The translations under genes were made by a program, and so were the position numbers. The notes beneath the pieces were generated by a model, which saw nothing but the letters and a program-made list of their open reading frames with translations, ran no database searches and was not told the origin of the DNA. From assembly GCA_942159475.1 (NCBI GenBank), contig OW804102.1:28898873-28962872 (forward strand): a DNA stretch of 64,000 nt. The letters run 5' to 3'. Position 1 is the stretch's first letter. Each line of letters opens with the position of its first letter. Of this stretch, positions 2,927 to 49,475 are shown in pieces. The DNA comes from Sthenelais limicola. Lineage: Eukaryota > Annelida > Polychaeta > Phyllodocida > Sigalionidae.

Positions 2927-2996
2927 ATGGAGGGATTTACCACACAAATTCTACTTTTAACACTATTTCTATTGTTTCGGGGGACTTTAGGACAAG
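2927..2996 (+). CDS. Receptor exon 1: signal peptide
   Basis: ATG at 2927, then a short polar start and a Leu/Phe-rich core (residues 8-17), ending RGTLGQ before a CAAG|GTAGGT donor. This is the usual signal-peptide exon ending in phase 1 that precedes phase 1-1 Ig exons. No upstream in-frame alternative looks better. Confidence 0.85.
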
Positions 2997-5900
2997 GTAG
3001 GTGGATTGAATATGAGTTTGATGTAGGGATATTTGACTAGCCTAAACTAAAAGGATGTCCGAAGTGAGGTCGACTCGGAGACGGAGGGGCAACAAGTGTT
3101 CTACTTCTAGGTAAACACAGTAAATTTCGTGGTGTAGGCCTACCTTTGTTAATGTTGGTGTGCTGTAATGGATGGTGTAGATCTTAAAGCACAGAGATGC
3201 CAACTTTTTGAGTCAGGCTTGCGGGACACTATCCCAGCAATTAAGGCGTGGGGTCTGGGGCCCGCCTAGGGCCCCAGAAGCCAGAGGGTTTTCTTTGCTC
3301 TCTGGTGCATTTTAAGCATTTTGGGGGGTTAAATATTGTCCAAATGATAATATAAACTCCTTACTATGATTCGCATAAAAAAATAATATAGACTTTTACT
3401 TTAACAATTTTTTAGTTTTAGGGTTTTAGGAGTCATTTTCACGAAATGCAGATTGCAGTTGAAAGAACGTCAAAAATAGAATTGTTCATATATTGCTGAT
3501 TTTTCTTGTACATATTATCATAGTGTTTTTTGTAGTATATCGAACTTGGGTAGTGTGAGACGGAAAAACACTACAATAGTACTTAGCTGTAATTCTGCGA
3601 AATTCGGCAGCTTAATCGTTAATAATTAGCCTTCAGTGGCCTGGCAAAGTTTTCCTCCTCTTTCATGCCATATACACTGCCATCACCGTACATCACGCTC
3701 AATATTAAAATGTTTAAAGTAGCATTTCATCAATCTGGTAGGTTCATTTTAATAGTTCTCTTTTTCTACCTTCAAAAACCGGCCTACTTATTCAGATTTC
3801 TATAGCAATTTGATATTTTTATGATATTAAGTATAAAATGTTCCTAAACTCTTGCGTTTTTTAATTTCCAATTTTCTACGTTTCTGACACTCTAACTAAC
3901 AGATTGCATTTACTGTAATTTCTCCTTTGTATTATAACGTTTGAAATGTATACCATCAGTTATAATATGAACATCATAAAAGTAGGGTTCCCTGGATAGA
4001 TTTCAACACGTTTTACCCAGCCATTTCCATTACCATTAGGTCCGTCATAATTTTAAATGTGTTATTGCTCAAAAACCGAAATGCCTAACAGTCGTGAAAA
4101 TCGGTCTTATACATCATTATGGACAATCACTTGGAGGCAGTTGTGAGAAAATTAAAGTATGCTGCCTTACATTTGTCCATGTTCCCACTCCCAACCCCCA
4201 CACACTTCCAATGATATACATGGATCAATTATATTTTGAATATTTTGTAATTATTATAATTGTGATTGGAATTTCGTTACTTCCTTTTAAATTTGTGAAC
4301 ATGGGCTTTGTGATGACAACTTAATTTTACTGTATCTCAATCCATGAGGCGTGGGGTCTGGGGCCCGCCTAGGGCCCCAGAAGCTAAGAGATTTTGCTTG
4401 CTCTCTGGTGCATTTTAAGCATTTTTAGGGGTTAAAATATTATCTGGTCAAAATTACATTTTTCCGGGACAAATATGTCTGCGGGCGGGACGCGGGACAC
4501 AGGGCTGATTTCCGGGACTGTCCCGGACAAATCGGGACACTTGGCATCTCTGTTAAATTAAGCAGCCAAGATTTTTACCAAGAAATAATACTGTTATACA
4601 AGTACTTTAATCAGGTACTAAACAATTGTTTTAATCTAAGGATTTTTAGACGTAAGACGGTACCCGTTTTAGTGTCGCATAAGAATGATAAAAAGAACAT
4701 TTATGGGGGAAATCGTCAGAAAATGTACAATTGGCCTTCACCAATCCTCTCATAATCCAAATTTAAGTAAAAAATCAGGTACAAAATACAGTTCAACATA
4801 ACAAAATAGACAATTTGAATCAAGGCAATACCAAATATATTCAGAAGATATACCTAGTGTTGACGATTTTCCAGTTTGATTTAGCAGAATTTACTAAATG
4901 TGTTGATCTGCCAATTCAATTGTACATTTTCTGAAGATCTGACCCTTATACAGTCCTTAGTACATGGAGTAAATGATCTGATTCCTCTGGGATTATCCCT
5001 CGCTTGTCTACCTGCATGATTTATTGTTTGAAACATTGATGCCTGTGAACAATCGGCTATTCAATAAAAAGCAATTGTGATTTGAAAAGAATATCTCAAA
5101 ATTGACGATACAAAAATGAAAAGATTAATTAAATAATGATCCCAGGAAGCAATGATGACGTCCTGTTCTTAATGTATAAGTCTTACTGATCTTCAATTTT
5201 GAGGGTTCTCTGAATCTCTAACAATCGATATTGTATGGAAAGTATACACCCAAATGTAGTCTGAATATCAGCGATTTTTCTGTATGTGAGATATGCAATT
5301 TAAATGCCAAGATAAGACAGGGGGATATTTCCCTAGATGTAAGATGAGATTAGTATTGTAAGATTTTTAATCAAATTATGGCTGCTACACTACAAAAGGT
5401 TCCAGACGAGAACCCTGTGCTGATAATAATTTGTAATTCGAAGATGATTCAGGGGTTTATGGCCGTTTTTACATTCACAATGTGTTTGTTTTAGGGCTTG
5501 AGACCTCGACAGACCCAGTGGCCAGGGAGGAGAAAAACGACGTCACCTTCAAGTGTCCCCCTACTGACCAATCCATGGATTATATTGCTAGAAAATGGTT
5601 GCGATTTGATGTGGCGCTCAATGTCTCTGTTGAACTCTTCGCTCAAGTAAAGGGAACTGCGGTTGCAATAAAAGACGGTGCCACTGCTAACATGAATGTG
5701 ACCAACGATTTTCAACTGATCATCACTGGGGCACTAGTTAAAGACTCTACCACGTATACATGTTTAATCGCTACGCAATCTCAAGAAACCAAATACAATA
5801 CCAAGTTGACTGTTTATGGTAAGTAAACACTGGGTATAAATATTATTTATTATCCCCTATGTACCAGTTGACTGACAAATCGTTATGCATGCCTGTTGAA

Positions 5901-8900: not shown

Positions 8901-11900
8901 TTTTTTTCGACCTACCTTTTTCCCGACTTACTTTTTTTCCGACCTACTTTTTTTCGACTAACTTATTTTCGACCAACTTTTTTTTCCGACCTACTTTTTT
9001 TCGACTAAGTTATTTTCGACCAACTTTTTTTTCCGACCTACTTTTTTTTCGACCTACTTTTTTTTCGACCTACTTTTTTTTCGACCAACTTTTTTCCGAC
9101 CTACTTTTTTCCCGACTTACTTTTTTTTCGACCTACTTTTTTTCGACAAACTTTTTTTCCGACCTACTTTTTTTCGACTAACTTATTTTCGACCAACTTT
9201 TTTTCCAACCTACTTTTTTTCGACTAAGTTATTTTCGACCTACTTTTTTTCCCGACCAACTTTTTTTCGACCTACCTTTTTTCCGACCTACTTTTTCCCC
9301 CGACCTACTTTTTTCCCGACCAACTTTTTTTCGGACCAACTTTTTCCCGACCAACAGTGCGTAATTCTGTCATGTTGATAAATGAACAAATATGGTTGGA
9401 ATTGTGAGAAATTTGCTGATTTGGATTTGATTCTAAGCCTTATACACATTGCCACACTCGGCAGACCTAAATACCATATTATCGCCCACTGTTAAAAACG
9501 ATCGTTAAACGATAAACCTTTAAACTCATCTCCTGCCCAACTTTTTGCTTCAGGTTTACTGAAGGCTTTAGTCGATTAATCAAAAATAAACGTTCTCAAT
9601 CTATAAACTTAAAACCTTCCTTGTCTTATTTTACCTTGTTCAGTCTATACTGTAAAGTGGTCATTCCTCTATGTACATTATTTCAAATTAAAAGAAATTT
9701 TCCACTTTAGTAATAATGCAATTTTCATTTTCGGGTGATTACACCTTTCTCTTATAAAAGGTAGTTAGAAAACTGGAATATTCCTTAGATGAGATAATTC
9801 CCAACTAATTCCTCTCTAAATAATTTCAGTGGTTACAAAATATTCCTATTATAAATGTCAATATTTAAATATAAACTGTATCAACAGGGTTTTTATTAAG
9901 GTTGGATTGGGGGGATTTGTGTGGTAGTAGGGGGGACCATATTTTCTGAGACATACATGCCCTGTTTCCTAGGGCGCTGCATAAAGCTGCTGGGGGCAGT
10001 ATACAAATTGGTGGCTTCTGGTGTATTTTCAGCATAATTCTCAGATTTCAGTGTTCAAATTGTATACATGAGGGTAGGGTGCAGGAGGGGACCAGCCTTC
10101 TGCTGTGGTTGGTGTTGGGGGGCACACCCCGAGAAATATTCACCTTAATTTTTCCAATTTTCCTGGGGATTACCCCTGGGTTCCCACTCCCCAATAGGGG
10201 GTCCAGGGGGTGCAATCCCTCTCCACTACCTAGGTAGAATTGTCTATCAATTGTAGGCTATAGACACAGCTTTTGACCGAAATTTTAAGTACCCCCGAGT
10301 GTACCTCAAGTGTACCCCCCATTGTATCTTCAGTGTACCCTCAGTGTCCCTCCAGTGTATTTATAATTAAATCAATGGACTAATTTGACTGATTGACAAT
10401 TTCGACTTTATGATTGGCTTTCTGACTTTACTGTTCGTATAAAGGAAAAATTAGACAAATTAGTACCGGTCTCGCATCCTTGTGCCATTAGGCACTCAAT
10501 CTAATCAACTTCCAACTATCAACTAAATTGTACTAATCAACCAATCAGCTAATTATTGCTTTCTTGTTTCATATAATTACTGTGCTAATATAAAATAATC
10601 TGTTTATATCTAATAATTATGGCATAACGGCTATGCTGTAGTGATAATGGCCACCTCCCAAGAAATGCTCACTGCAATTCAATAGCATCTGCATCATATC
10701 TATACTTCTTACCAAATTCAGGCAGGCCTAAACAATTAATAGAAATGGTGAAATTGCATGAAGTTATATTTCATTTTATATTACCAGTATTTAGGATTGG
10801 GAGAATTACTCTTATGCAACATGGGTGGGTTTTTACCTGGGTGGCTCTTTACCAGGTGGCTTTTTACCGGGTGGCTTTTTACCGGGTGGCTTTTTACCGG
10901 GTGGCAATTCGCCTGACACCGTTCGATTTTTCAGTCGAGTTTTGTCATATTCTTGAAATTAGACGATATTTGATAAGACTGATTTGTAAGATTTTGATAA
11001 AAACATCATGATGCATACTGAACGATTCAATAATCCATCTTTTTTGTTTAAAACAGGTTTCAATCGATCACATGATGATCGTAGTGATGATCATTAGCCC
11101 ATACAGGGTTATGCAAAAGTCTTGTTTTAACCAGCCCCTAAGTGAGTGCGATAATTTGTGGAGAGTTATAGAATTTTGTAACCACTCACTATGGCAGGAA
11201 AATGAATGTTTAATACTATGTGTTACTTTTAAAATGATAGATGCAAGCCAGAGTTGAAAAAATCACATGAGGACAACCACTTTTCTAAATATGGTTGGAT
11301 GTTACACTACTAACTGAACTTGAAATCCGTTTGACTTGTTGATTTCTTGTTGCGTGGAAAAACGATGGATTCGTGGGTTTGGAATTCGTGATTTTATTGT
11401 GCCCAACGTTTCGGTGCTCTTTGCACCTTCTTCAGGGGTGCCGTATACAAATCTAAATATGGTTGTCCGCCTGGCTGAAATAGGTGTTGCAGACTAGTCC
11501 AGGACGCAGGATTTTTTCAACCCTGGAAGCCAATTAATCCACAGTAGACAATGTTGTCAAACAGCAAAAAAAGAGAGGCTTCAAAGCGGCCATTTTATTC
11601 ACACCTGGTTGTAGATTTCTGCTTCTGGTAAAATGGCAAAAAATACCTCGTCCGTGGCCGTTTTTGTCTCAGTTCAAAGATTTAAATAATTATATCCACT
11701 GCATTTATGACATATGCAAACACTAGTATATAATTGAAAGTAAACTTCTACATTCTAACTTAATGTTATATTAAGGATACTTTTCCTTTTTTGTCACAAC
11801 AGTACCACCAGTAGTTGAGCTCAAAGTTCTCCCAGAAGAAGCTGTGAAAGTTGGAACAACAGTGGATGTTTCATGTACGATATTGAGGGTGTTTCCCAAA

Positions 11901-14900
11901 CCTGCATCCATTCAGTTCAATGGGAGAAACATGGACACAAGTCGGCCCATGAATAATAGTGACCACAGTTATAAATATGCGTTAACAACACCCTTTCCAC
12001 TTAAGAAAGAGGACAATGGGAAGCGTGTACAATGTACTGTGACACCAGAATCCACTTATGGAATTCCTGAAGATAAAGAAGTGGTGTTTAACGTCTTATG
12101 TAAGTATAATTCTTTATTACACCTTTCTAGCGGACAATATGGAAGGCCATATATGCTACACGATTGCATGTTCTGCCAAATTGCTGGACAACCAAAATGT
12201 CAGTCTGAAAATAAACTTGTGGATACTCGTCGGGCAACCAACTTCACACACTATATTTGTTCTTAGACAATTACAAAGGGGCATGTGGGTCTTTTGCTTT
12301 GTTTGGAGTTAATGTTTATTCTGCTAATCCTTCAAGCATAAGTGGTAGGATCACATTGAGAGTGAAGAAATCTGATGCATCTTAAATTGTAATAACTTAT
12401 AAACTAGCATCAGGCATCTCTGTGTTTTATGTGTTAAGAGCAGTTATACATATAATCCTTTCTGGACAATATCAAATGGCCAAGCCCCAGCTCCCCTTAC
12501 TTCCACCAGGGAGGTATGTAATATACTATATTAGATATACCTCCCTGTTCCCTCTGTTCTTCTCTAACCAATACAACTACTATTAAATCTTTGTCTTAAA
12601 TATTTGATGTACTATAATACAATAAGATAGACTTAAAATAAAAATTACGTTTTGGAAGGAGTACTCTTGTGACGTTGGGCAGTATTCTATGATTAATTAG
12701 CCTTTATTTTAGTTTTGGTTAAGAATATATGATTATGCATCACCAAAAGCTCTCAGATTTCTGATATAATTATATGATGCAAATATGGGCCCTGAATGTA
12801 CCGTTTCTCCTACTTAAACATATTTCCGGGTTGGGGATGGGGGTTTGAGGGACGAGGATGCCCCAGGATCCACCTCTAGACATCTGTTTCTGGAAATCAT
12901 GAATGCTAATGATAGCCCAAACTGTCTTTTGCCATTTTAGTTATATTATAGCTTTTCTCTTCATTGTACTTTTCTGTCCTTTCTTTATAACAATGCTGTT
13001 GAAGAAACTGATTATACTAAAATATTAAACCTATTTATTGATTCCCCCCCCCCCCCCCCCAATATAACTCGGAGGGGGGGGGCGGCTGCAGAACTATTTG
13101 GTCATACACGTAAACAAAACTTTAGATTAGTGCAGTTAAAACTAATGAAACCAATCCGACAAGTGAGTTCTCCCGATCTACCATGTTACATATGTGTACT
13201 CCATATAACTTTGTCTCTACCTCTCCCCCTTTCTCTGTTTAACTATTTATCTCGACATCTGCTATCTCTATAATATAATTCAGAAAATTAAAATATTATT
13301 TTAATTTTCTGAATTTTTCTGGAATTTGAAGAGGAACAAAGGACATTGCATCGAGCGCATCACATGCCTTACTCTAGTACTGTAAGATGTCATTTGTCTG
13401 AGCACTGTATACAAATTCTAAATTAAAAAAGAAGAAGAATACAACAGTTACTGATATAATTATATAATATAACCATCTCTATTCAGAGTCCAGAATACTA
13501 CAATTATCTCTTTCATCATTCTTCTTTACCTGTATTCTGAGGTTGACTCCTTTCTCTCAACTTCCCTGTCTTTCTTCATGTTCTTATCCATCGCTGTTTT
13601 CTTCTGTCTTTAAACGTATGTACATGTATAAAAGTTGGTGTTTTTTATTCAGGTGTAATCATTTTACAAGCCTTGTAATATTCTCAGTTTAGGACATATG
13701 TGGAAATGGTGGATTGACGGGAACTGTCATTTTAATTACATGCTGTCACTTCTTCAGACAAACCCGAAGGACAACCGTCAGTGTCACCTGGTACCCAAGA
13801 AGTATATCTTAAAGACAGTGTAAAGTTAACGTGTGAGGATGGGGGCATTGAGGCCGGCAACCCACCTGAATATACATACACCTGGTACAAGGATGCCCTT
13901 GTGGTGGACTCTGAGATAAGTCAAACCTATTCCTTCACTGCCACAGAAGATACAGGGGGTAACTACAGCTGCATGCTAAGGAACACTGAAGGATCTAGCC
14001 TACAATCAGACAGTGTTGCTATCACAGTCAGGAAAGAAGTTGGTGAGTTAGTAGCTTTTACTAGTCCTGAAATGGTCTCTTGCAAATACATGAGAACTAT
14101 TACTTGATTTAAGGCCCTTGTCCACTAGGCCAACTGATTCTGCAAATTCAAAATATAATTGCTTAGAAATAGCAGAAATATATTTTGTTAAAATTGTCTA
14201 TAAAATAAGCATTTATCAATCAAATTGAATTTAATCCAGCTCAGATCCCATATCGCCAATGTTCACCTATTTTTCTCTGGCAGATTAAAGTACAGTAGAA
14301 TCCCACAGAAGGCATGATTATCATTATAGATTTCATATATAAAATTGTGATTTTTTTGATTTTTTTTTATATACTTTTAAAATATACTATAGGCAATGTC
14401 GGAAAACATCTGTGATAGATAGACTGTCTTTTCTCTATCAGTTAAATGTATATTTAGCCTTAAATGAATAAAAAAAGAACGACCATGTCGGCAGTGCGAC
14501 CAAATTAAGTCCAGTCTCCAATAAAGGCGATAATATAAGAGAAGATATCCGGTAAACGGACCAACCCGCTATGCAACAATAAATTGCTCAGTCCCAAATG
14601 CGGTCGCCTAAGCTGAACTCTAAAGTACTAAAGGACACCATTGTTTGAAATTGTTTGAATGAAAAAGTCGTTTTATAGAAAATAAAAGTTATCAAATTTT
14701 TTTATATCTGTGTACTTATGGGACATTTCTTTTCCTAGCTCCGACATCAAGTCCTCAAATGTCAGTGTTGCCAGCCGCTGTAGGAGGAGCTGTTGGGTTT
14801 GTCCTGGTGCTCGCCATCATCATTGGTCTCTGTATATTCTGCCAAAAGCGGAAAGCCAAGCAACTGGATAAACAATGTAAGATATCTTTCTTTATATGAG

Positions 14901-15006: not shown

Positions 15007-18000
15007 ACTCTCCCTCTCTCTTTCCTTCTCGCTCTCTTTCCTCTTCCCCCTTTCCATACTTAATTAAAAGCAGGCATTATCAATTTAATTAAGATTGCAC
15101 AAATAATTACTTACATTAACCATTTCCCAACTGGCTCAGAGTTTGCTTTTAATGTTTACTATGCAGAATAATTCGCTCCATATAAACAATAGCTAAATTC
15201 ATCACAAGCAATATTTAAGAATTTCTATAGACCATTTGAAGTGTTAAGTTTGAAAACACAACTTCTTATTCTTCGTATATAAATGCATTTAATACCATTT
15301 GATTAACAAACGTCCCATGGTGTGTTTTTCTCTTCTTCAGAGAAGAATGATGATTAGTTGTTAATTCATTTTCATCTATTTCTTCAAATGAGATTTATAT
15401 TTTATTTATCACTTTTTTTGTCATTTTACCATTTATTCCATAAGATGTTTACCGAGGTATGGAACATGCGGAATTGGGTTCTATTTACATATTTCTATCT
15501 GTTAAGTGGGTCTTAAGAAGAGATAAGAGATATAATTTAAGCTTAAAAATGATGTAGAGGACAGCAGCCTGGACTTCTTCTATGAGCATCATTGCTACAA
15601 TCGTTCTATGCAGACAGACATAGCTTTCATTTACGAGTATATGATAACAGCATTTATGGCATCAAGGACAACATTAGGGACCTCTGACAGTATACACAAG
15701 CTTGTAGATTGCATTCATTAGAGCTTCAAAATTGTCTTTAGCTTTATATATGTATTCACTTGGTATTCAGAAGACATTTAACACAGTTTAAACGTTCCTG
15801 AAAAGGACTCGATCTTCTACTGCGTAGCTCTTTGATATGAATGCAAGAACTAGTTTGCGTACAAAGCCTTGAAATTCAAATAGAAGTGAAATTAGTGTAA
15901 GTTACCTAAGGGGAATAGCATTGCTTTACATTGCATTGTATTTCATAATAAACTGATAGATTTCTGGTTAATGGGATAATTTGTAAGAGCTTTCAGTAGC
16001 CTTGTGTTGAGTAGATCAACATTACTGGTATGCTTGTTGGCTAGTGTATTTAATAGTTAGCTGGGATGGTTATTGATGTACCTAGTAATGATAGAATAAT
16101 TAATTTACATCGATTCAATAATCAGTCATGTTGACATTTCTATTAGTCCCTCTTCTCTGGGGAGTATTATAAATTAGTTATTATATACCTAGGTGTTTTT
16201 CTGACCTTCTGAGTCTTGGATTGTGTAAAGAGTTTGACCCAGTTAGCTCTAGGATAGGGTAGTTTGTTAGAACCTTTCAAAACGATTGGCAGGCTCCTGG
16301 TAAATAAAATATATGTACAACATACTCACCCATCAACCCTATTTGTGTGTATTTACCAGTTAGCAGTTAGTTTATATTCATAACCAGCTGGAAGACCTAC
16401 CCCTGGTTTAAAGGCCAAGTCCCATTTCTATTTATGAATGATAAAAAGAAATACAATAATAATAATAAATAGCAGATCCCACCCTACACATGCTAACCAT
16501 TGCTACCATTAAACATGATGTTTAAACTTTTATAGTGGGTAAATGATCTAGATAAAAGTTATGAAAGCCAATCTTACCATGTTCCATTTTCATGTACTAT
16601 ATATCAGCTTTATTTCATATTTTGTAGCTGGAGGATCAACGGCCAAATTAACAAGGTAAGATAATTGTATTACTCATCCAAATCATCCATACCCAGGGCC
16701 ACTCTGCCTGCATAAAAAACCAATATTTTCGAAGTATCATCTAGTACTTGTATTAAAGGTAAATATAAGAAGGAGAGACTCACACCTTCTCCACTTAGCA
16801 TATGAGATGAGTAGTGACAAAAGATACCTTGACAACAGAAAAATCAATCTGCGAAGTCTGGCAAAGAGTAAAGTCCTAAAAATACCAATGACAAAAACAG
16901 AGAGGATCAGAAAATCATTTATTGTACAAGCCCCAACCCTTTTCAATAAAATTCCACCAGCTGGGAGAAACTGCCCAACACTGGTTGAATTCAAAATATA
17001 CCTTGAAGAAAACTTCTTCTCCCACATGGGATAATGGAGAGACCCCAACATCGATCTCTATCGGGCAGGCCGTACAAAACATTACTAAGCTAGTCGAAAA
17101 TACTTATACAAATTGTGAAGGATGTGGATGCAAATTGGGGCCAGTGTTCGCCAGAATGTTACCCCACATGCATCTAGACCCTCTAGTCATCATAACATTT
17201 TAAAGAATGTAAAAATATATAAACAGCAGTCAACGCAGTGTTCGTAAGAATGCCAGGACATAGCTGATTTTGAAAATGGGATACACTACCTGTACAAACA
17301 CACAACCCATTTTCTCTCATTTTATCCATCAAACTTAAATTAACCCAAATTTAACAAAAGGACGGCGTCCACAAAATTATACACAAGGAAACCCAATACC
17401 ATGGGTCACACCTTGATACAGATATAGCTAGTGCATCCCATTGCAGTAGTGTAGGTAACTAGTCACTTTATACCTCTATATACCGTAACTTGTAATTTAA
17501 AAGTCTAGTCTAAGGGACCCTCTGGAAGAGCTGTGGCTGCCACAGAAGAGGACTGACCCATTTCCGATGTATATTATCGTATATTTTTATCATGTACTGT
17601 TTTCGGAAATAAACAATATACATACATACATAACGTTGATAATTGTTCCTAGCAAGTGGTACAACTGGAAGACATGTAGAAGCCTATTCTATATAATATA
17701 TCAATGATGGAAATTAAAACATTATAACAATAATAATAATATTATCACCGAAATTGTATCTAGACAAATTATTTTGAACTTATACGTTTAAGGCCATTAC
17801 TTCTAGTCTTGTTAAGGATGATGAAGGTTTGGTCTAATTGGTTACCACATAAATTTGCCCATCAATCAATTAGGGAACCACGTCTTTTGCATAGTAGCAG
17901 TGAAGCAGGACGGAGGATCGTTTTACCACGACGGGTATATTAAGACAACATTATATATGTATGATATAGTTTAGATCTCGGAAAGTAAAAGTCGAGGTAA

Positions 18001-21000
18001 AATTCCATTCGGTATACTTACCCACTTTTAACAAAATATTGTTATTACTTTACAGAAATGGAAATTTAGAAAGAGTAGATATTCCACCACAGTCGGATGG
18101 TATGTATGAACTTGATTGATGTAATCTTAATCATGCTGTATAATATATAATGCCTTGGAAAAACAAATTCATTTCTCACTCATCAGAATTAAAATTCGAT
18201 TAAGTTGGATTTATTACTATTCATGACTGATATCCACTTAAATCATATCCTATCCGATAAAGTTTTAAAAGCAATTTCATTTTTAATCATTACTTTGCAC
18301 TGAATTTTGATTCAAAATCGTTTTGATTGGCAATTGTTAACATTTGTTATGCTTGTGTGAAGAATCATTTGGAAAACTCCCGAGATTGGGAAACAAAATA
18401 AGACTTAAATGCACTTATTATCACGGTACAAGGAATTATCACACATTAAGACATTATATAAGTTACTTTTCTTACTATTTGATATCTTTAGATAGAATGC
18501 ACTGAGTGGTTGTTCTGCATTAGCGTATCAGACACACACAGAGTGTAAATGAATGTATCATCAAGAGTGTTGAAGCCACAAGTGATCATGCATACATTTA
18601 CACTTCAATTGTGTCTGATACACTATTTCAGAACAGCCAGTTCAGAGTTACATTCCATATTAAATCACAACTACCATGTTTTAATGATGTTAAAATGGTG
18701 AAATTATCTTGTGCGATCATTCCCCAGACATTGTTTACATAAAGGGGGTCTCCACTGGCTGCGGTAAGCTCTGCGGTAAGCCTTGCGATGGTTTGTGCTG
18801 GTTCTGTAGGTGGTGAGGAATGACGAGGTCCTTGCCTACATGGTCAGTGAATGATGTAGGCCACTCCTCAACAACACAGCACCATCGCAAGGCTTACCGC
18901 AGCGCTTGCCGCAGCCAGTGGAGATCACCCTTAAATCTACAAAATTATCAACACCTTCGCATCTCTGCAACGCACATCAGTCTGCAGAAATCCATGTGTG
19001 TTTTTTAAAAAAAACAATAACCTAGCGTGAATCATCTAGTCGCGGGGTTGGTAACATGTAAAGTGGTAATATAAATATATAAGATCTGTCAGTTGTAACC
19101 AACCATACTTTCTTTGCACTTTTTGGGATGTTATTAATGTGCAGTTTCTAGTGTGGCTAATGAGGCTGGCATATACTGTGATGTGGGGTGACCGAGTGGT
19201 CTAAAGCGTGGGGTCGGTTCAATGGCATGAGTAACATGTTGAGGGTTCGAACCTGGGTGCAGCTACAGTTTCACCTCATTGCCCAGGTACTAGAGGAAGA
19301 CCACCATTAAGATGATCTAGTCCTGGTAAAAAATGTAAAAGAAAATGCAAAACAAATGGTATATCTGCGTTGTTGAGACCGCTCTCCATTAAAACGCCTA
19401 CATTGAGGCATTTTCAAAAAGATTTCAAATGTACAATGTACATCAACATCCACTGATCATTGTACTTTGAATTTACTTTTCTATTTAGATGCCTTAGTTA
19501 ATAAACGGCGGTCTCAACGTCGCCGGCGTCATATAACCCATCGTGACAATTTGCTTGTGGGTGTTCGTTTTGTTGCTGAACATTTATGCAGTAAGTTAAA
19601 TTAATGAACTTTGCATTGGTGTAATTATTAAGCGACTTGTGTAATGCGAAGCAGATATAGTGAAGATAAACGTTCTCTTTGCCTAACTAGAAGCTTATAT
19701 AATGGATAAGTGATTTGAACAAATGATACACCCAGGTTCAATGGAGAAAAGCGATTATTTTATTGTAATATTCTTGTAGAAAAACTTTTAAATACAAAAA
19801 TACGACCTAAATACACCATACATCACGCATAACACAGATGCCCATATTAGATCTATTTTAGGCGTCTGGCTAAAAGGTGTAATTAAAATCATTGGAATGA
19901 ATCAAAACCAATGATCAACATACAATATATCAATAGTCGAGAGAACTTGGACGTTTCTTAACAATGGTGTAAATTTGAAAGGAATTACTTTTAGTACCAA
20001 TAATAGTTAAAAATTCCATTGAAATATAATCCTGTATAGAAACTACTGGAAAACTGTTGCACTTAGATAATGATTCAGAGGTACCGAGAGCTGTCCCCGT
20101 TAGTCACATAAATAAACAGAAATAAAAAGGAATAACAATAACAAGAAGAAATGAATTAAATAAACTGAGTGTGACAGGCCCGAGTGTATACCGGAACCTT
20201 GTGGTCAGCTGGTCTATTTCCTCTCTATTATATTACGACAGAATTGCTGGTATCTATCGACCATGTCCGTAATGTTGTTGATAAGGGGATTAGATAGAAA
20301 GAGAGAGGTATCTGGCTATTTAATCAATGCTATAGGTTGGCCTCGCTACATATTATATATGTACAAAACCAGGCGTGATCCACATCCAACCGGGTCTCAT
20401 TTAACTCTTTGTTTGTTTATTTATTCGTACATTTATATTTTCATATACATATTTGTTGATGACTGTTAGTCCCCGATCCATTCCCGGGTCTTCGTAAGCT
20501 TCTAACTGAACTATTAGACCAAACAAATCCATGAATTCACATCTTACTTTGACATGCATTTGACAGTACAATGTATAACATTTTCTCGGTATATTTCTAA
20601 ATTTTCTTTTTAGTAATACTCTTAATGTGTTATTACAAAATTGATTAATTAAAGTATAATTTTCTACTAATGAAACTTCTAATTTCTAAGCTCATACATG
20701 TACCACTTTATAGTAGCCTAAAGCTAGCATGCTTAGTATTACATGCGTACACTGGAAGACCTGCGCTTACTAACACAGCATGCAATAACTTTTACTTAAA
20801 AGTACGAATAAACTTTAAGAATTCCAATAGTAAATTACTGCTAGTACTACTGCTAAGTACTGCTACAACTAAAACATGATAATTGTAAAAAGCCAAAATG
20901 TTATTAGAGTAACGAGGATGTTATTACCAACAAATGTGAAATATCTTCCACGGTTACATGACATGACAACTAGTACTCTTTCTTTGTAAAGTTTGTAAAC

Positions 21001-24000: not shown

Positions 24001-26008
24001 GCTCCTTTATGTAACCGGGCAATCTTAGCTAACTAACCTATGTTCCTGACCTTCTAGGTTTAAGTATTAGTCAGAACTCGATCAGGAATTGAAGGAAGCT
24101 TCGTAACGTGATGAACTAAAGAGCACATTTAAATATTAATTCATACATACAGAACAGAAATGGACAGATGTAGATACATGTTTGCCTACCTATACAATAT
24201 AATACATGTAATGGAACAAGTAAATAAATGCGCGAACGTACGTAGTAAATAAATGCTAGATATTATCGATAAATAATACTAAAAAGATGAATGAATATAG
24301 ATTAGTTGATCATATATTTTAGTGACATTGAAGACACCCTGTTCTAATGTACTGACAACTACACTTACAAATTAATAAGTTAAAGTTATAAAACAGACAA
24401 TATACTAATATTTTCATGGCATATAAAACCCCCTCCTCAAGCATACTTTGGTAACTAATCTTTAGAAAAGGTGGAGAATTCCGTGTTACATAGATTGCCA
24501 ATTGAAACGATAATGATAATACAATGTTAATACTTATGAAGCAAAACTGTATACTTCAATTTACACAAAGCCCCTTGTCTACTGAGCCGATTATACTAAC
24601 GGGGGGCAGTCAGGGGACCAGGGGCTTTACAACCAAGGAACCAAACCAGTTTCCTATTGCAGAGAGCGACTTGGCTAAATTGACCCTAGTGCTTTCATTA
24701 TACATGTTTTAACATTGTTTAGGAGACGGTCAATATAGTGAAATATCGCAGCCTCAGCGACAAAAACCCATCCCTGCCAAACGCAGCTTTAAAAAACCCA
24801 AAGCGGAGCCCATGTACTCAGAGGCTCGGCCGGAGTGTAAGTTGTTATCTTTGTGTTTCAAAAATTATTATAGTAGACTCCCGCTAAGGCGACCACCTTT
24901 TGGGCTGAGCTATTCCTTAATAACGGGTTGGTCGTATTACCGAGGTGGTCGTTATGCGAGACTCTACTCTACTTAAATTCTTTTATTTTCTACTCTTCTA
25001 GCTTTCTTTTTAGATCTTTTATTTTACAATATTTTTAGAATGTTTTAATCAATATCTTTTCCCCATTATTCTATTGTTTATTAGTTGAATCCGCAATCGA
25101 ATTCTATCCATTTTTTACCGAGCTTTTCTTTTCATAGCTGTCAGGATTTTTAGTCAATGTCTTATTCTTATGTCATTGCACATTTTGATTTGGAATAAGA
25201 GTTTGGAACCAATACTTCTTTAAGAGAAATTATCTTTTCACAAGCACACCTTTTGCACGTTTCTCTTTTACTTAGATCATCTTTTTATACATCATTTTGG
25301 ATTTTATTTGACGAAATTGCTTCAGTTTTCTTTAATATGGTTCTTTAACCAGATAAATATATTTAACCTGTGGCTTGGAGCAATGAATAGAGCTATTTCG
25401 GAGTTAATCCAGACTAATTGATAATCCTTGGATTCCTAATGCTCCTTTTCTCGAATATTTACTATTGCCATTACATGTTTGTATTATTTCGCTTCATTGT
25501 TGAGTGATATCTGTCGTGCCTTTCAGATTAATTTCTTGTGGAATGTCTTATTGACATTCTCCTATCAAACCAGCATGCCAAATCTGTATAAGTATTTCGG
25601 AGAAGTGTACACGTTTAAGCTACATAAAGAGAGGCTTATTTCTATATTATGTCATTTTTCATTTGTAAAAATAAATAACACTCCTAGGGCATGTATGCAT
25701 TGTCTCTCCTCTGTCTTCGTATCTTGATCTCACCCTTCTCTTGTTCTCTTGATTTTCTTTCTTTGTTTCATTATCTGATTGTCTATTTCTTTCTCTTTCT
25801 GAAACTTTAATTTTTAATTCAGTTCCTTCTGTTTTACTTGCTTTCTCCCCGTCTCTCATTTTCTCTCCTTTCATAACCCCCTCCCTTTCTCTCTCGCTCT
25901 CCCTACCCCACTCTCTCCTCTATCTTTCTCCACTCTCCCTCCCCACTCGCTCTACCCCTCTATCACACACCTCCCACACTCTCCTTCCCTCCCTCCCTCC
26001 CTCCCTCC

Positions 26009-26048
<40 letters not shown>

Positions 26049-26750
26049 CCCCTTTCTCTCTCGCTCTCATGTCAACTTGACACAACATATAAATACCTGA
26101 AGCCTATGATACCATTGTCTAAAATGTGTCTAATATGTTTAATATGCCCCTGTATGTGTTACTGCCCACAGACCGGGGTATCAGTGGTCCTGCAGAGCAG
26201 CCCTACGCTAACATGGGGGAGTCGCTGTATGACGAGGTGAACGACAGACGCGGCATACGTCCTGACGTAGCCAACAATAATGACACAAATGTAAGCATGA
26301 CCACTCAATTCTAGAAATTCTGACGTGTCTGATGTTATTTCATTTAACATGTTATTTAACCAGTAAGCAACAATTTGAGTGGCCTTTTAGTTGATATACC
26401 AGTGGAACCATGATATCAGCACGGAAAAGGATAGGTTTGCTTTTCAAAAAAACCTCTTTGGTTCCATTTAGACCAGTTTAGTGCCGGACATATTTACAGG
26501 AACTCTTGAAGTTGTTCTTTAGCTGATGTAGGAATTAAAAGATTTTTCTTGTATATTTAGCTGAGAAATGCAGCGTTTATTTATGAATATTGTTCTATTT
26601 GTGTTTCAGAACCAATTAGTATACGCCCAACTGGATCTGCTGTCCCCTAAAAAGAACAAAAACCAGAACCAGAACAAGAAGTCACCAGCGGCTCAAAGGA
26701 GAGAGGCACCGACTGAATACGCACACATAGACTTTAACAAAACTGGATAA
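2927..26750 (+). CDS. Ig-superfamily inhibitory-type receptor with ITIM/ITSM tail (11 exons, 553 aa)
   Basis: Exons: 2927-2996, 5495-5818, 11803-12099, 13758-14042, 14739-14876, 16628-16655, 18056-18099, 19489-19590, 24723-24836, 26172-26290, 26610-26750. All introns are GT-AG, phases agree, and the frame is open to TAA at 26748. The protein has a signal peptide (1-23), Ig domain 1 (24-131), Ig domain 2 (132-230), Ig domain 3 (231-325), a membrane segment (about 337-360), a KRKAK stop-transfer and a tail of about 190 aa. Tail tyrosines: Y434 (GQYSEI), Y461, Y468, Y479 (PYANM), Y487 (SLYDEV), Y512 (LVYAQL, ITIM) and Y544 (TEYAHI, ITSM-like). In known families such motifs recruit SHP-type phosphatases and SH2 adaptors after Src-kinase phosphorylation; that role is inferred here. 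Skipping exon 8 leaves a 519-aa form in frame. Orthology is not identified; a cell-adhesion Ig protein is the main alternative. Confidence 0.87.
3192..4552. mobile_element. hAT-like non-autonomous DNA transposon in intron 1
   Basis: It begins CAGAGATGCCAA (3192-3203) and ends with the exact reverse complement (4541-4552). Flanking octamers TTAAAGCA and TTAAATTA agree at 6 of 8 positions, fitting a decayed 8-bp target duplication. The CAGRG-type terminus and 8-bp duplication are hAT hallmarks. Inside, an 85-bp GC-rich block (3245-3330) is repeated directly at 4347-4432. No transposase frame was seen. Confidence 0.7.
4712..4945. repeat. Dispersed TIR repeat R1, copy 1
   Basis: The left end GTCAGAAAATGTACAATTGG is mirrored by a right end reading CAATTGTACATTTTCTGAAG. 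Body landmarks such as CCTTCACCAATC and the CCTAGT block are shared with the copies at 7865, 32801 and 34165. It lies in intron 1. It is probably a small foldback (MITE-like) family; no coding capacity. Confidence 0.7.
5495..5818 (+). CDS. Receptor exon 2: Ig domain 1 (V/I-set-like)
   Basis: Phase 1-1 exon of 324 nt. The first core cysteine lies in VTFKC, the core tryptophan in ARKWLR, and the second cysteine in the canonical D-x-x-x-Y-x-C context (KDSTTYTC). N-glycosylation sequons NVS and NVT are present. Acceptor TTTTAG at 5494; donor GTAAGT at 5819. Confidence 0.9.
5999..6072. ncRNA. Candidate pre-miRNA-like hairpin in intron 2
   Basis: A 74-nt foldback 181 nt after exon 2. The outer 13 bp (GTCCTCGTCAAAT, 5999-6011) pair perfectly with 6060-6072. 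Inner segments TTTTC, CAT and CAGCATG also pair, with two G-U wobbles, one mismatch and one bulged base. The loop is about 11 nt. Size and shape fit a microRNA precursor, but a tiny foldback transposon would look the same. Expression is unknown. Confidence 0.4.
6349..6506. repeat. 15-bp minisatellite, CCACC orientation (intron 2)
   Basis: About ten degenerate copies of GCCACCYGGTAAARA. The array is homologous, in inverted orientation, to 10822-10905. The adjoining flank (GGTGAATAGCCACC) also has an inverted match there, so the arrays are true inverted copies. Confidence 0.8.
7865..8086. repeat. Dispersed TIR repeat R1, copy 2
   Basis: It starts GGGTCCGATTTTCAGAAAGT and ends with CAAAATCTGACCC in inverted orientation. 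The body aligns loosely with copy 1 (CCAATC..AAATAACCCGAATT). It is a diverged copy in intron 2. Its 70-codon open frame (7839-8051) is incidental. Confidence 0.6.
8383..8580. repeat. Local direct duplication of about 105 bp
   Basis: The block beginning GGTGAAAGTGAATTGTACAT recurs about 100 bp later with the same downstream GGAGGTGTGAGC and GGGGGGTCTGGGGGCATGCC. Each block contains an R1-type terminus (GTACATTTTCTGAAAATCTT). Confidence 0.7.
8605..9356. repeat. Pyrimidine-rich tandem array (TTTTTTCGACCTAC-type)
   Basis: About 750 bp of 14-18 bp units built from T-runs followed by CGACCTAC, CGACCAAC or CGACTAAC. The + strand, which is the receptor's sense strand, is strongly T/C-rich. A 114-codon frame crossing its left part is low-complexity and not a gene. 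Confidence 0.85.
9357..10821. other. Intron 2 remainder
   Basis: Mostly AT-rich. A G-rich stretch at about 9890-10240 carries repeated GGGG blocks and may be an old repeat, but no termini or coding potential were recognised. Confidence 0.4.
10822..10905. repeat. 15-bp minisatellite, GGTGG orientation (intron 2)
   Basis: About five copies of GGGTGGCTTTTTACC, the reverse complement of the array at 6349-6506. Both lie in the same intron about 4.3 kb apart and could pair in the transcript. Confidence 0.8.
11285..11465 (-). mobile_element. Short Penelope-like fragment with hammerhead-type core and 13-bp target duplication
   Basis: Flanked by perfect 13-bp direct repeats CTAAATATGGTTG (11285-11297 and 11453-11465). 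The minus strand of the 155-bp insert contains CUGAAGA (11435-11429), a GGUGC/GCACC stem and GAAAC (11412-11408). That is the CUGANGA-stem II-GAAA order of a hammerhead ribozyme core. Such motifs are known from Penelope-like retroelements of marine invertebrates. A matching stem I/III and cleavage triplet were not found, so activity is doubtful. Confidence 0.6.
11803..12099 (+). CDS. Receptor exon 3: Ig domain 2
   Basis: Phase 1-1 exon of 297 nt encoding a VPPVVEL start, core cysteines in VDVSC and RVQCTV, and an NNS sequon. The core tryptophan is absent (IQFNG at that point), so the fold call rests on the cysteine pair, exon phase and neighbouring Ig exons. Acceptor CACAACAG; donor GTAAGT. 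Confidence 0.85.
12100..13757. other. Intron 3
   Basis: AT-rich. It includes a small inverted repeat at 12509-12545 (GGGAGGTAT/ATACCTCCC), a poly-C/poly-G stretch near 13045-13082, and a perfect 17-bp-arm palindrome with a 3-nt spacer at 13278-13314. No exon or transposon ends were seen. Confidence 0.5.
13758..14042 (+). CDS. Receptor exon 4: Ig domain 3 (I/C2-set-like)
   Basis: Phase 1-1 exon of 285 nt. Landmarks are SVKLTC, the tryptophan in YTWYKD, and the D-x-G-x-Y-x-C signature in EDTGGNYSC, with an NYS sequon at the end. This is the clearest Ig fold of the three. Acceptor CTTCAG; donor GTGAGT. Confidence 0.92.
14043..14738. other. Intron 4
   Basis: AT-rich. At 14111-14140 it carries a fragment like the terminus of the GTCCACTA foldback family (see 29999-30109). 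Nothing else was recognised. Confidence 0.4.
14739..14876 (+). CDS. Receptor exon 5: stalk, transmembrane segment, stop-transfer
   Basis: A Pro/Ser/Thr stalk, then about 23 hydrophobic residues including AIIIGLCIFC, then QKRKAK. Phase 1-1, 138 nt. The basic cluster sets the C-terminus in the cytosol. Juxtamembrane cysteines could be palmitoylated (inference). Confidence 0.9.
14966..15045. repeat. Microsatellite (CT)n
   Basis: A C-run followed by a long CT dinucleotide run and mixed CT-rich sequence in intron 5. Confidence 0.85.
15046..16627. other. Intron 5 remainder
   Basis: AT-rich with no exon, RNA gene or transposon termini recognised. Confidence 0.4.
16628..16655 (+). CDS. Receptor exon 6: cytoplasmic micro-exon
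   Basis: A 28-nt exon encoding about SGGSTAKLTR, bounded by TTTTGTAG and GTAAGA. It enters in phase 1 and leaves in phase 2, matching exon 7 exactly. Confidence 0.75.
16735..17632 (+). mobile_element. 5'-truncated non-LTR retrotransposon (CR1/Jockey-type 3' end)
   Basis: The open frame ending at 17034 encodes RRRDSHLLHLAYE, then TERIRKSF and a final FKIYLEENFF segment. This is the pattern seen at the C-terminus of CR1/Jockey-like reverse transcriptases (homology by recollection). Roughly 600 bp of 3'-UTR-like sequence follows, ending in AATAAACAATA and the short tandem (CATA)n at 17616-17632, typical of these elements. The catalytic RT domain is missing. It is inserted sense in receptor intron 6. 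Confidence 0.7.
18056..18099 (+). CDS. Receptor exon 7: cytoplasmic exon
   Basis: A 44-nt exon encoding RNGNLERVDIPPQSD. It has acceptor TTTACAG and donor GTATGT, enters in phase 2 and leaves in phase 1. No tyrosine. It can splice in frame to exon 8 or directly to exon 9. Confidence 0.75.
18500..18646. mobile_element. Foldback (MITE-like) element in intron 7
   Basis: The left arm from 18505 includes GCGTATCAGACAC. It is mirrored by GTGTCTGATACAC in the right arm (18611-18634). TGTAAATG/CATTTACA in the middle also pair, giving a long imperfect hairpin. No coding potential. Confidence 0.7.
18742..18932. mobile_element. Near-palindromic foldback element in intron 7
   Basis: The termini AAGGGGGTCTCCACTGGCTG and the inverted right end differ by about one substitution and one indel. 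TAAGCCTTGCGATGGT and its reverse complement continue the match, so nearly the whole 191 bp folds on itself. The 62-codon frame at 18820 is incidental. Confidence 0.8.
19183..19345 (+). mobile_element. tRNA-derived SINE in intron 7
   Basis: The tRNA-like head has an A box (TGACCGAGTGG, 19189-19199) and a B box (GGTTCGAACC, 19244-19253), the internal RNA polymerase III promoter. A body with ACTAGAGGAAGACCACCATT and an A-rich tail follow. The body recurs alone at 27649-27704, proving dispersal. The head is followed by non-tRNA sequence, so this is not a functional tRNA gene. Confidence 0.8.
19489..19590 (+). CDS. Receptor exon 8: candidate arginine-rich cassette exon
   Basis: 102 nt, open throughout, phase 1 in and phase 1 out, with acceptor CTATTTAG and donor GTAAGT. 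It encodes a basic stretch KRRSQRRRR followed by a less charged segment ending AEHLC. Because it is symmetric, exon 7 can also join exon 9 directly. The Arg cluster could be a nuclear-type or lipid-binding motif (inference). It starts 144 bp after the SINE. Inclusion in mRNA is unproven. Confidence 0.6.
21043..21295. repeat. Tandem repeat, about 85-bp unit, three copies
   Basis: GGGATACTGTAAAC (or GGGATACTTTAAAC) followed by AGGGAAAG and an ATAATAAAT-rich spacer recurs three times. Confidence 0.75.
23648..23938. mobile_element. Small TIR element in intron 8
   Basis: TAAAGCGGAC at the left is mirrored by GTCCGCTTTA at 23929-23938. About 290 bp, non-coding. Only about 10 bp of perfect terminal inverted repeat supports this. 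Confidence 0.4.
24723..24836 (+). CDS. Receptor exon 9: first tyrosine motifs
   Basis: 114 nt, phase 1-1. It encodes DGQYSEI (Y434), a proline/basic linker with KPIPAKR, and EPMYSEA (Y461). These YSE tyrosines fit SH2-type sites loosely but miss the ITIM consensus at -2 or +3. The linker may be an SH3-type ligand (inference). Confidence 0.88.
24872..24967. mobile_element. 96-bp foldback element in intron 9
   Basis: AGTAGACTCCCGCTAAGGCG at the left pairs imperfectly with the right arm ending GCGAGACTCTACT. GACCACC/GGTGGTC lies inside. MITE-like, non-coding, 35 bp past the exon 9 donor. Confidence 0.65.
25729..26068. repeat. CT-rich microsatellite tract
   Basis: About 340 bp of nearly pure pyrimidine on the + strand, including (CCCT)n and a long (CT)n at 26010-26043. 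It lies about 100 bp before the exon 10 acceptor. Frames in it are low-complexity. Confidence 0.85.
26172..26290 (+). CDS. Receptor exon 10: YANM and S-type ITIM
   Basis: 119 nt, acceptor CCCACAG, donor GTAAGC, phase 1 in and phase 0 out. It encodes QPYANM (Y479), which fits YxxM (PI3K p85) and YxNx (Grb2), then SLYDEV (Y487), which fits (S/I/V/L)xYxx(I/V/L). The tyrosines are 8 residues apart, too close for one tandem-SH2 protein to bridge comfortably. Confidence 0.9.
26345..26618 (+). repeat. Intron 10 segment duplicated at 43490-43761
   Basis: Near-identical to 43490-43761, with scattered substitutions and small indels. The match runs through the 3' splice site into the first nine coding bases (AACCAATTA) of exon 11. 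Confidence 0.85.
26610..26750 (+). CDS. Receptor exon 11: ITIM plus ITSM-like C-terminus
   Basis: 141 nt including TAA (26748-26750). It encodes NQLVYAQLDLL (Y512; LxYxxL is a full ITIM), a Lys/Asn/Gln spacer, and PTEYAHIDF (Y544; TxYxxI is an ITSM). The 32-residue spacing suits tandem SH2 domains of SHP-type phosphatases. The ITSM-type motif sits 9 residues from the C-terminus, as in PD-1-like tails; this is similarity of layout only. Confidence 0.93.
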   Translation, partial: NQLVYAQLDLLSPKKNKNQNQNKKSPAAQRREAPTEYAHIDFNKTG

Positions 26751-27560
26751 GGTTACCATGGAAACACAAAAGTATCAGTACACATACAGCGTCTGGCATA
26801 CCCTCACAGCAGAGACAGCTCGTAACTAAGTGGATTATAACTTCCTTCTGTCTCGCTAAGGATTCAACTGCACTGGATACGTTACTTTACATTAACAAAC
26901 AGGATTCTGGACTCTGATCATGTTACCTTGGATATTAATACTCTTTTCCTAGCAAACTGTTTGTGACTTTGTACTGACATTGTTTTTCCAATGAGTCAGC
27001 ACGCAACCGCTACCTACCGTCAAGCGTGAGAAGTAATCGAAGGTTCATACTGTGTTTCAAATGTCGTCTGCTGTTTTGTGAAGGGGCAGACGAGATTTAT
27101 GAATACTTGTTCAGGTCCGGGAAGTTCCACTAACTACCTACATACTGCAAAGATAGCAATAGCGTCTCGGGGAACAATATCCATGCTCCTTGGGCTTAAC
27201 TAAACAAGTCTAGCTTTGACAACTGTTTCTGCAAAGGAATCCCTCTGCCATTTCTAGAAATATTTATAAACATCAGAAGATACGTCCAATATTCCCATGC
27301 TAAATTGCAGCTACATTCAGCTGCAAATTTCCAGGATAGAGTAACATTTGCGACACAGGGACAAGATGATAAAGTGAATAATTAGGAACGACAACGTGCC
27401 CAGGGTTGGGCATGGGCAGTTGGCACAGGTGCAGAAAGGAACGCATTTACTGTGGCCAACAATAGCTGTGTTTCCGATTTATATAGCTGAAAACATTTTA
27501 ATCTTTTTTAGGTAGCCACCTTCCAGGAACTAAAATAAATGTCTTTCGTGACAATACTTG
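26751..27560 (+). other. Probable receptor 3' UTR
   Basis: Non-coding sequence after the stop. An AATAAA hexamer at 27534-27539 would end the transcript near 27555. Not proven by transcript data. Confidence 0.5.
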
Positions 27561-27648
27561 TTTTAAACAAGAGAAATGTGCCTTTTAACGGTTCATGGTT
27601 AGGAAACTTATTTTCTGCTTCGTACTCTCTCCCCCCCCCCCCGTCCCC

Positions 27649-27704
27649 CAGGTACTAGAGGAAAACCACCATTGCGGTGATCTAGTCCTGGTAAAAAATG
27701 TTTA
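27649..27704 (+). mobile_element. SINE 3'-body fragment
   Basis: CCAGGTACTAGAGGAAAACC and the following CTAGTCCTGGTAAAAAATG match the body of the full SINE at 19183-19345. The tRNA-like head is absent and a poly-C run lies just upstream. Confidence 0.75.
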
Positions 27705-35951: not shown

Positions 35952-36221
35952 ATTCAGGAGGGGGTTTGGTCAAAGCGTCCAACAGTCAAAGCGTCCCGCC
36001 CTATAGTCAAAGGTGACTAAGTGATATGGTTTATAATTATGGTACTATATTATTTAATTGTGTAAGGCATATGAATATAGGCGAGAGATGGCCAAACATA
36101 TTTACTAAATATCATAGGCAATTTAATTAGAGGCTAATTAATTAAACCTCTACACTACAGTCCAACCCACCCTCAAGGGTTGGCCTACAGGGCACTACAG
36201 GGGTATAGACCCTACCGATTC

Positions 36222-38225: not shown

Positions 38226-38392
38226 ACGTTTAGTCCAATCTGCTAAAATGTGTCATGAATAATTTTGGAAAAGTGTGGTTACTCCAGGGCTGGGAATGCC
38301 ATTAAAACATGCACTATCCCCCATATGTTCCAGTGCTCACCAAAAATAATGATAAACTAATAACACTGGTGTCTATTGAGCCGTGTCTATTG

Positions 38393-38625
38393 AGCATCCA
38401 TTCAATCCTATACAAACAAAAAATAGTGATGTGAGAATTAGCATATAATTCAATGGGAGTTCCATTCAGCCCTATGCAAACTAAAAATTGTGCAGTGAGA
38501 ATTAACATAGGATTGAATGGGAGGCCCATAGAAACCTATGCAAACAAAAAATTGTGCAGTAACAATTAACATAGGACTGAATGGGAGTTCCATTCAAACC
38601 TATGTTAACTATTTTTTGTGCATAT
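38393..38625. repeat. Tandem repeat, about 64-bp unit, 3.5 copies
   Basis: TTCCATTCARNCCTATGCAA followed by AAAAATTGTGCAGTGAGAAT and TAACATAGGATTGAATGGGA recurs with small changes, ending in (TA)n at 38623-38633. Confidence 0.8.
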
Positions 38626-38639
38626 ATATATATAGGTGG

Positions 38640-39070
38640 GCATTAGGCGACATGGTAGGGTCAGTCAGGCTATAGGGAGGCTCAGTCGGCAGTGGCAGTT
38701 GATGAGAGATAATTCATTTGGCCAGTTCCCAAACATCAGAGGCCATACTTCATTTAATTCAAGGCAAGTTGTTTTCAATTTTTCCACATTCCAACCGTGT
38801 GTTTAGCAACATGATACATGCCATTGTTTGAGGATAGACTCAGACTCATAGAAAAGGATTAGGAAAATAAGACAAAATGGATAACTTATGTGGTAATATG
38901 AACTTCCCCATTATGACATTGTAATTGTCACTATAATTGTAGGCATAGTTTGTGTAGCATCTTTATCCTTATCCTTAGTATGTATGGATTCCTTAGAATA
39001 TGCCGCATAATACAAGATACTGCTTTATTTTTTTCAACATTGTTTCATTTCATTTATTGACCATTTTCGT
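38640..39070. other. Intergenic, nothing recognised
   Basis: AT-rich single-copy-looking sequence without coding or transposon signals. Confidence 0.35.
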
Positions 39071-39078
39071 TTTGACCG

Positions 39079-49308: not shown

Positions 49309-49321
49309 GCCTTTGTGCGTT

Positions 49322-49475
49322 GAAAAAATTTCCGAACAATAGAGAGTAGGTAATAGTGGTTGAGTAGTAGGAGAAGAAGGAAGTGTGAGGGTTTGTGGGT
49401 AGAGCAGCTACCTGGCACATGTGGAAGGTGGAGCCACCAATGCCTAGGAATTATCTATGAAATTCCTGCAACATT
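49322..49475 (-). repeat. YR element repeat A1 (5' end)
   Basis: 154 bp, identical by eye to A2. It forms the 5' terminus and presumably carries the promoter. It ends ..CAACATT against host GCCTTATATC. Confidence 0.9.

Follow-up and report, generated by a model that had tools for sequence, protein, structure and literature searches.

SIRP-alpha has three immunoglobulin (Ig) domains with a distal V-set, crosses the membrane once and carries near its C-terminus a pair of sites (LxYAxLD and xEYAx[I/V]) that binds SHP-1/2. Its four tail tyrosines form two pairs and include neither YANM nor YDEV. CD22 and the Siglecs have mixed tails, in which immunoreceptor tyrosine-based inhibitory motifs (ITIM) are combined with Grb2-type sites, and PD-1 has one Ig domain. 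Receptors of the ITIM type are also known outside vertebrates, because there are examples from oyster, Botryllus, Hydractinia and amphioxus. In oyster (Crassostrea gigas), the immunoglobulin superfamily (IgSF) receptors IgIT and CgIgIT2 are called inhibitory in the titles of the reports (J Immunol 2020, on oyster haemocytes; Dev Comp Immunol 2023); a review gives CgIgIT2 five Ig domains and an immunoreceptor tyrosine-based activation motif (ITAM), a label at odds with the inhibitory title. The available text of PMC12065747 presents the Botryllus fester co-receptors (FcoRs) as Ig receptors, 520-610 aa long, whose motifs are ITIM, hemi-ITAM (hemITAM) and core YxxI/L/V and which at some loci can swap motif by splicing, and lists Hydractinia alr-locus candidate genes bearing ITIM/ITAM motifs. 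In amphioxus, three ITIM or ITIM-like tyrosines of the leucine-rich-repeat receptor BbLcLRR inhibit T-cell-receptor signalling in transfected Jurkat cells (excerpt of PMC8211107). We analysed a window of 64,000 nucleotides from the annelid Sthenelais limicola (assembly GCA_942159475.1, contig OW804102.1, positions 28,898,873 to 28,962,872 of the forward strand; positions below are those of this whole stretch), in which a plus-strand gene is predicted to encode a three-Ig receptor. We read it, at roughly even odds (about 0.5), as a regulatory receptor whose phosphotyrosine tail docks SHP-2. An initial annotation of the same DNA had held such receptors to be poorly described outside vertebrates, which is too strong given the examples above.

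The tail carries seven tyrosines, separated in turn by 27, 7, 11, 8, 25 and 32 residues, the last being followed by nine residues to the C-terminus. By translation of the plus strand they are Y434 (GQYSEI, with YSEI at 24734-24745), Y461 (PMYSEA, with YSEA from 24815), Y468 (PEYRGI), Y479 (QPYANM, with YANM at 26204..26215), Y487 (SLYDEV, 26222..26239), Y512 (LVYAQL, 26616..26633) and Y544 (TEYAHI, with TEYAHIDF at 26712..26735). YANM is a site of both the YxxM and the YxN type, SLYDEV is an S-type ITIM as well as a YDxV Nck-type site, LVYAQL is a canonical ITIM, and TEYAHIDF follows the consensus of the immunoreceptor tyrosine-based switch motif (ITSM). The ITIM and ITSM classes of Y487, Y512 and Y544, already named in the initial annotation, fit the definitions given in the accessible part of PMC12151841, where ITIM is (S/I/V/L)xYxx(I/V/L) and ITSM is TxYxx(V/I). 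Our independent exon assembly also recovered SLYDEV, LVYAQL and TEYAHI in the last two exons, the exact interval 26172-26750, the residue numbers Y487, Y512 and Y544 and the length of 553 aa; four tail tyrosines (Y434, Y461, Y468 and Y479) had been passed over. With an Ig ectodomain, one transmembrane segment and (S/I/V/L)xYxx(I/V/L) in its tail, the protein has the features of an ITIM-bearing IgSF receptor, a kind of receptor rather than a single homologous family.

The residue at +3 is I, L or V at five of the seven tail tyrosines, and I, L, V or M at six. We compared these counts with 100,000 shuffles of the 194-aa tail, a null model that ignores real tail evolution and whose tests were picked after the motifs had been seen. 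There are five Y-x-x-[ILV] sites when 0.96 are expected (P = 0.00075), two [ILVS]xYxx[ILV] sites (P = 0.014) and one TxYxx[VI] site (P = 0.015), and at least two ITIM-type sites jointly with one ITSM arose in 17 of the 100,000 shuffles (P = 0.00017). A lone strict [ILV]xYxx[ILV] site is not significant (P = 0.12), and the other motifs appeared in 0.4% (YDE[VPD]), 6.9% (YxxM) and 46% (YxN) of the shuffles. A binomial test of five I/L/V out of seven at +3 gives P = 0.0009 at the tail's own I/L/V frequency (0.139), which weakens to P = 0.0065 at an assumed proteome-wide frequency of 0.215. The motif set as a whole exceeds chance; several of its single motifs do not. A regular-expression scan for ITAM (YxxI/L x6-12 YxxI/L) and hemITAM ([DE]GYxxL) patterns found neither in the tail, and we rejected a receptor of that kind. 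Among Protein Data Bank (PDB) chains of at least 20 residues, none matches the tail at E ≤ 10, in a search whose query began at the Gly of the form lacking exon 8 and not at the Arg of the full model.

The sections available of PMC12151841 give (T/V)EYATIx(F/Y) as the PD-1 ITSM consensus and (I/V)(D/E)Y(A/G)(E/V)L(D/E)F as that of the PD-1 ITIM, and report that SHP-2 prefers Leu +3 at its N-SH2 domain and Ile +3, Ala +1 and Thr -2 at its C-SH2 domain. In the excerpt of PMC7337045, the N-SH2 domain favours a hydrophobic residue at -2, and the Phe +5 of PD-1 peptides is used by an extended SHP-2 groove. TEYAHIDF agrees with the PD-1 ITSM at six of seven scored positions including the tyrosine (five of the six others), the mismatch being His +2, and this score was reached by 2 of the 100,000 shuffles. 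The ITSM-like site is unusually good, within a mixed tail. From these preferences, Y544 (T -2, A +1, I +3, F +5) is C-SH2-like and Y512 (hydrophobic L -2, L +3) is N-SH2-like. An N-SH2-like site precedes a C-SH2-like site, as the ITIM precedes the ITSM in PD-1, but the PD-1-type layout proposed in the initial annotation is not supported: the receptor has three Ig regions where PD-1/CD28 receptors have a single V-set. The two tyrosines are also further apart, with 32 residues between Y512 and Y544 against 25 between Y223 and Y248 of PD-1 (PMC12151841 and PMC7078208, in the parts available). We rejected membership of the PD-1 group on the number of Ig domains and on the ITIM sequence. We likewise rejected a SLAM-type SAP switch (TIYxx(V/I)): TEYAHI has Glu at -1, and the text available of PMC12151841 states that SAP-type switching needs a hydrophobic -1 and that Glu makes it unlikely.

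The sequence shows the domains, the motifs and their excess over chance, together with a gene structure predicted from splice signals; phosphorylation, partners, signal direction and cell type are inferred. In the SHP-2-docking reading, a ligand would cluster the receptor and a Src-family kinase would phosphorylate its tail. An SHP-2/Corkscrew-type phosphatase would then dock on Y512 and Y544 with its tandem SH2 domains, N-SH2 on Y512 and C-SH2 on Y544. Alternatively, it could dock on Y544 of one receptor and Y544 of another, following the dimer model of PD-1: a mode in which SHP-2 bridges the ITSM tyrosines of two receptors is supported by PMC7078208 (in part), and therefore Y544 alone might suffice. 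The bound phosphatase would reset nearby signalling, while YANM would recruit PI3K/Grb2-type and SLYDEV Nck-type adaptors. Overall, the receptor would modulate signalling, probably as an inhibitor like SIRP-alpha or CD22. In favour of this reading are the intact spliced model with its canonical splice sites, the three Ig regions, the +3 residues of the tail tyrosines, the joint ITIM/ITSM excess, the fit of Y544 to C-SH2 and of Y512 to N-SH2, the weak resemblance of the Ig part to CD22, and the oyster Ig receptors with inhibitory titles.

The receptor gene lies on the plus strand at 2927-26750, where exon assembly from the raw sequence gave 11 exons forming one open frame of 553 codons and a stop. 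The ten introns all have GT-AG ends, with donor hexamers that differ from GTAAGT at one position at most, and an in-frame stop at 2903 precedes the ATG at 2927 (start context GAAATGG). Exon 1 (2927..2996) holds the start codon and the signal peptide, with hydrophobic core ILLLTLFLLF and a GTAGGT donor. The next three exons encode one Ig domain each and are flanked by phase-1 introns, a common arrangement of Ig genes. Exon 2 (5495..5818, residues 24-131) matches the Pfam V-set at residues 31-130 (28.1 bits, cut-off 26), exon 3 (11803..12099, residues 132-230) is C1-set-like, with a match at residues 140-214 (26.2 bits, cut-off 21), and exon 4 (13758..14042, residues 231-325) matches Ig_2 at residues 238-321 (56.1 bits, cut-off 27, E = 4.3e-15). 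The cysteine pairs 44/113, 156/209 and 256/302 are consistent with three Ig disulphides, and there are four N-glycosylation sequons (positions 66, 91, 182 and 299). Exon 5 (14739..14876) encodes the stalk, the transmembrane segment and a basic CQKRK; 19-residue windows of mean hydropathy above 1.6 start only at residues 332-347, with a maximum of 2.89 at residues 342-360. The three Ig regions and the one strong hydropathy segment, which we predict to be a single transmembrane segment, bear out the three-Ig, single-pass protein of the initial annotation; a signal peptide completes the predicted receptor. When the structure of the exon-2 Ig domain was predicted from a single sequence, the mean predicted local distance difference test score was 45.9, too low for a fold search. 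A T-rich tandem array with overlapping periods of 16 and 47 bp occupies 8612-9355, within intron 2.

The tail is encoded by six further exons, all on the plus strand. Exons 6 (16628..16655, 28 nt) and 7 (18056..18099, 44 nt) encode its juxtamembrane part and exon 8 (19489..19590, 102 nt) an arginine-rich segment, this being the least certain exon and a possible cassette. Exon 9 (24723..24836, 114 nt), another possible cassette, encodes Y434, Y461 and the first base of the Y468 codon; exon 10 (26172..26290) encodes the rest of that codon, Y479 and Y487; and exon 11 (26610..26750) encodes Y512, Y544 and the stop codon. That exon 11 is joined to those encoding the Ig domains is predicted from splice signals and phase. 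A possible polyadenylation signal at 27534..27539 is the single AATAAA/ATTAAA within 26751-29000. By frame arithmetic, which gives no sign of actual splicing, the frame is kept when exons 6 and 7 (together), 8 or 9 are omitted, and Y512 and Y544 are kept in each of these forms. Omitting exon 8 leaves an intact protein of 519 aa that lacks the arginine-rich segment. Omitting exon 9 leaves 515 aa and removes Y434 and Y461, and also Y468, because the codon of the latter is split across the exon 9/10 junction. Omission of exon 10 loses the frame of exon 11. Tail isoforms lacking the arginine-rich segment or Y434/Y461 are thus possible. A tblastn search of the window gave no sign of a tandem copy of the gene: the matches are the gene's own exons (exon 1 being too short to show), apart from one of exon 6 overlapping its intron (E = 1.3) and one on the minus strand at chance level (E = 9.9). 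We also tested ten open reading frames (ORFs), chosen among many, as further Ig exons; nine lie in introns and one lies before the gene, and none has an Ig match.

We then looked for relatives. The best PDB matches of the whole protein, neuronal growth regulator 1 (NEGR1; E = 1.1e-5) and CD22 (E = 1.2e-5), are both weak and would assign the receptor to no family; the search returned 142 distinct sequences at E ≤ 1, of which we inspected the best 60. The protein searches consider sequences that share 5-residue words with the query and are 0.55-1.75 times as long, so that distant orthologues can escape and negatives are weak; a protein identical to the query at half or more of its positions would probably have been detected. 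With the whole protein, against a database that includes fish UniRef entries, 7999 candidates were scored and four had E ≤ 10, the best being a fish CD22-like protein (E = 0.035). The tail (residues 429-553) gave 54 candidates, none at E ≤ 10, and Ig2-Ig3 (residues 124-333) gave 393 candidates and no match. The gene is undescribed in the literature that we searched, whose coverage omits most subscription journals.

Several of these results weigh against the SHP-2-docking reading. LVYAQLDL matches the PD-1 ITIM consensus at four of eight positions, a score equalled by 11,143 of the 100,000 shuffles, and Y544 fits this consensus better (five of eight) than Y512 does. The Ala +1 of Y512 is a preference of C-SH2, not of N-SH2. 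The three protein searches gave no orthologue, and hence no counterparts with which to compare the tyrosines. Finally, two sites are of the adaptor type. SLYDEV shares its YDEV core with Y1191 and Y1208 of mouse nephrin, two of the three Nck-binding tyrosines in the table of PMC3237483, a paper whose available part also reports recruitment of the PI3K subunit p85. YANM obeys the Grb2 rule of Asn at phosphotyrosine (pY) +2, and its Met +3 is shared with p85 sites, although its +1 residue is Ala whereas p85 prefers pY-M-x-M (PMC7337045, in part). The tail, with a PI3K/Grb2-type and a nephrin-type Nck site, is therefore a mixed docking platform. It could belong to an adhesion or cytoskeletal receptor of the nephrin type, in which Y487 would bind Nck and Y479 PI3K/Grb2, driving actin at contacts (in phagocytosis, fusion or neural settings), with the ITIM-like sites secondary or used by Src-family SH2 domains. 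The nephrin parallels, the rarity of YDE[VPD] in the shuffles and NEGR1 as the best PDB match among the 60 inspected all speak for it. We nevertheless find it somewhat unlikely, with a single YDxV site, three Ig domains and, as the strongest statistical feature of the tail, the C-terminal ITIM/ITSM pair. Membership of the nephrin group by multiple YDxV Nck sites was rejected on the same single YDEV.

The direction of the signal is a separate question. Corkscrew, the Drosophila SHP-2 orthologue, has a positive role in growth-factor and receptor tyrosine kinase signalling. This, together with the presence of YANM and SLYDEV in the same tail, leaves the label "inhibitory" of the initial annotation unsupported. 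Its suggestion of haemocytes as the site of action is likewise unsupported. An alternative is an activating or dual receptor, where SHP-2/Corkscrew would promote Ras/MAPK with Grb2/PI3K at YANM and the ITIM-like pair would not be inhibitory. The positive role of Corkscrew and the Asn +2 and Met +3 of YANM agree with this alternative, but its Ala +1 suits p85 poorly, single YxxM and YxN motifs are not rare in the shuffles and the tail has no strict ITAM or hemITAM; we regard it as unlikely. Less probable still is that a tail bearing tyrosines has most of these motifs by coincidence, or that exons were wrongly joined. Such motifs are short and degenerate, no orthologue is at hand to show constraint, exon 8 is uncertain and a strict ITIM occurs in 12% of shuffles, but the five YxxI/L/V sites against 0.96 expected, the joint ITIM/ITSM test and junctions that are all canonical and in frame speak against this reading. 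The SHP-2-docking reading also has a more ambitious form, which we think has little chance of being right in full. Here the tail would be an ordered tandem dock for SHP-2 that was assembled independently in one receptor of a non-vertebrate lineage, with the N-SH2-type site first and the C-SH2-type site, nearly of PD-1 grade and with Phe +5, second. It would stand behind a YxNM and an Nck site, and the most upstream tyrosines would lie on a cassette exon whose omission keeps the frame; splicing could thereby tune the receptor between braking, co-stimulation and actin coupling.

The window also holds repeats and other coding sequences. A retroelement on the minus strand (44979-49407), which we take to be DIRS-like, has a reverse transcriptase ORF (45971-48280; RVT_1, E = 1e-12), a tyrosine recombinase ORF (44979-45992; Phage_integrase, E = 4.4e-10) and an upstream ORF of 435 aa without clear family. 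Also on the minus strand, a RING-finger ORF (53614-53997; zf-RING_2, E = 4.9e-12) is possibly part of a larger gene extending to about 63 kb; its RING presumably resembles that of DZIP3. A 31-bp tandem repeat (52758-53559, about 26 copies, 94% matches) adjoins this ORF. A minisatellite at 36226-38216 has about 154 copies of a 13-bp unit, and the GC skew is -0.44 in 36001-40000. Two stretches that are alike by eye, at about 19190-19340 and 27645-27700, around CTAGAGGAA..ACCACCATT..GATCTAGTCCTGG, look like a short interspersed element; the first has a tRNA-like box before it, but ARAGORN reports no tRNA. Over the whole window, neither Rfam (at gathering thresholds) nor ARAGORN has a match.

If the tail works as we read it, an SHP-2-type brake would be known from one more Ig receptor, one that probably lies outside vertebrates and whose ITSM-like site is near that of PD-1. 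Such a case would be relevant to the question of whether tandem SHP-2 docking is ancient or repeatedly evolved, and phosphopeptides from the mixed YANM/YDEV/ITIM/ITSM tail form a small set that can be tested directly. Compared with the known systems, nephrin has a larger ectodomain. Mouse nephrin has ten listed tail tyrosines, three of them Nck-binding, against seven and one YDxV in the receptor, and as the table of PMC3237483 spans the residues from Tyr to +3, the ITIM status of nephrin is not judgeable from it. The Botryllus FcoRs have a sushi domain and hemITAM (PMC12065747, in the available text), whereas the receptor tail has neither ITAM nor hemITAM, and CgIgIT2 has five Ig domains, by the description in the review, where the receptor has three. 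The Siglecs and CD22 differ from the receptor in the number of Ig domains, and its Ig similarity to CD22 is weak both in the PDB (E = 1.2e-5) and for the fish CD22-like protein (E = 0.035), perhaps generic to Ig domains. As seen here, the likeness to SIRP-alpha is one of layout. On these comparisons, the layout of the receptor is most likely nearer to that of SIRP-alpha or CD22 than to that of PD-1.

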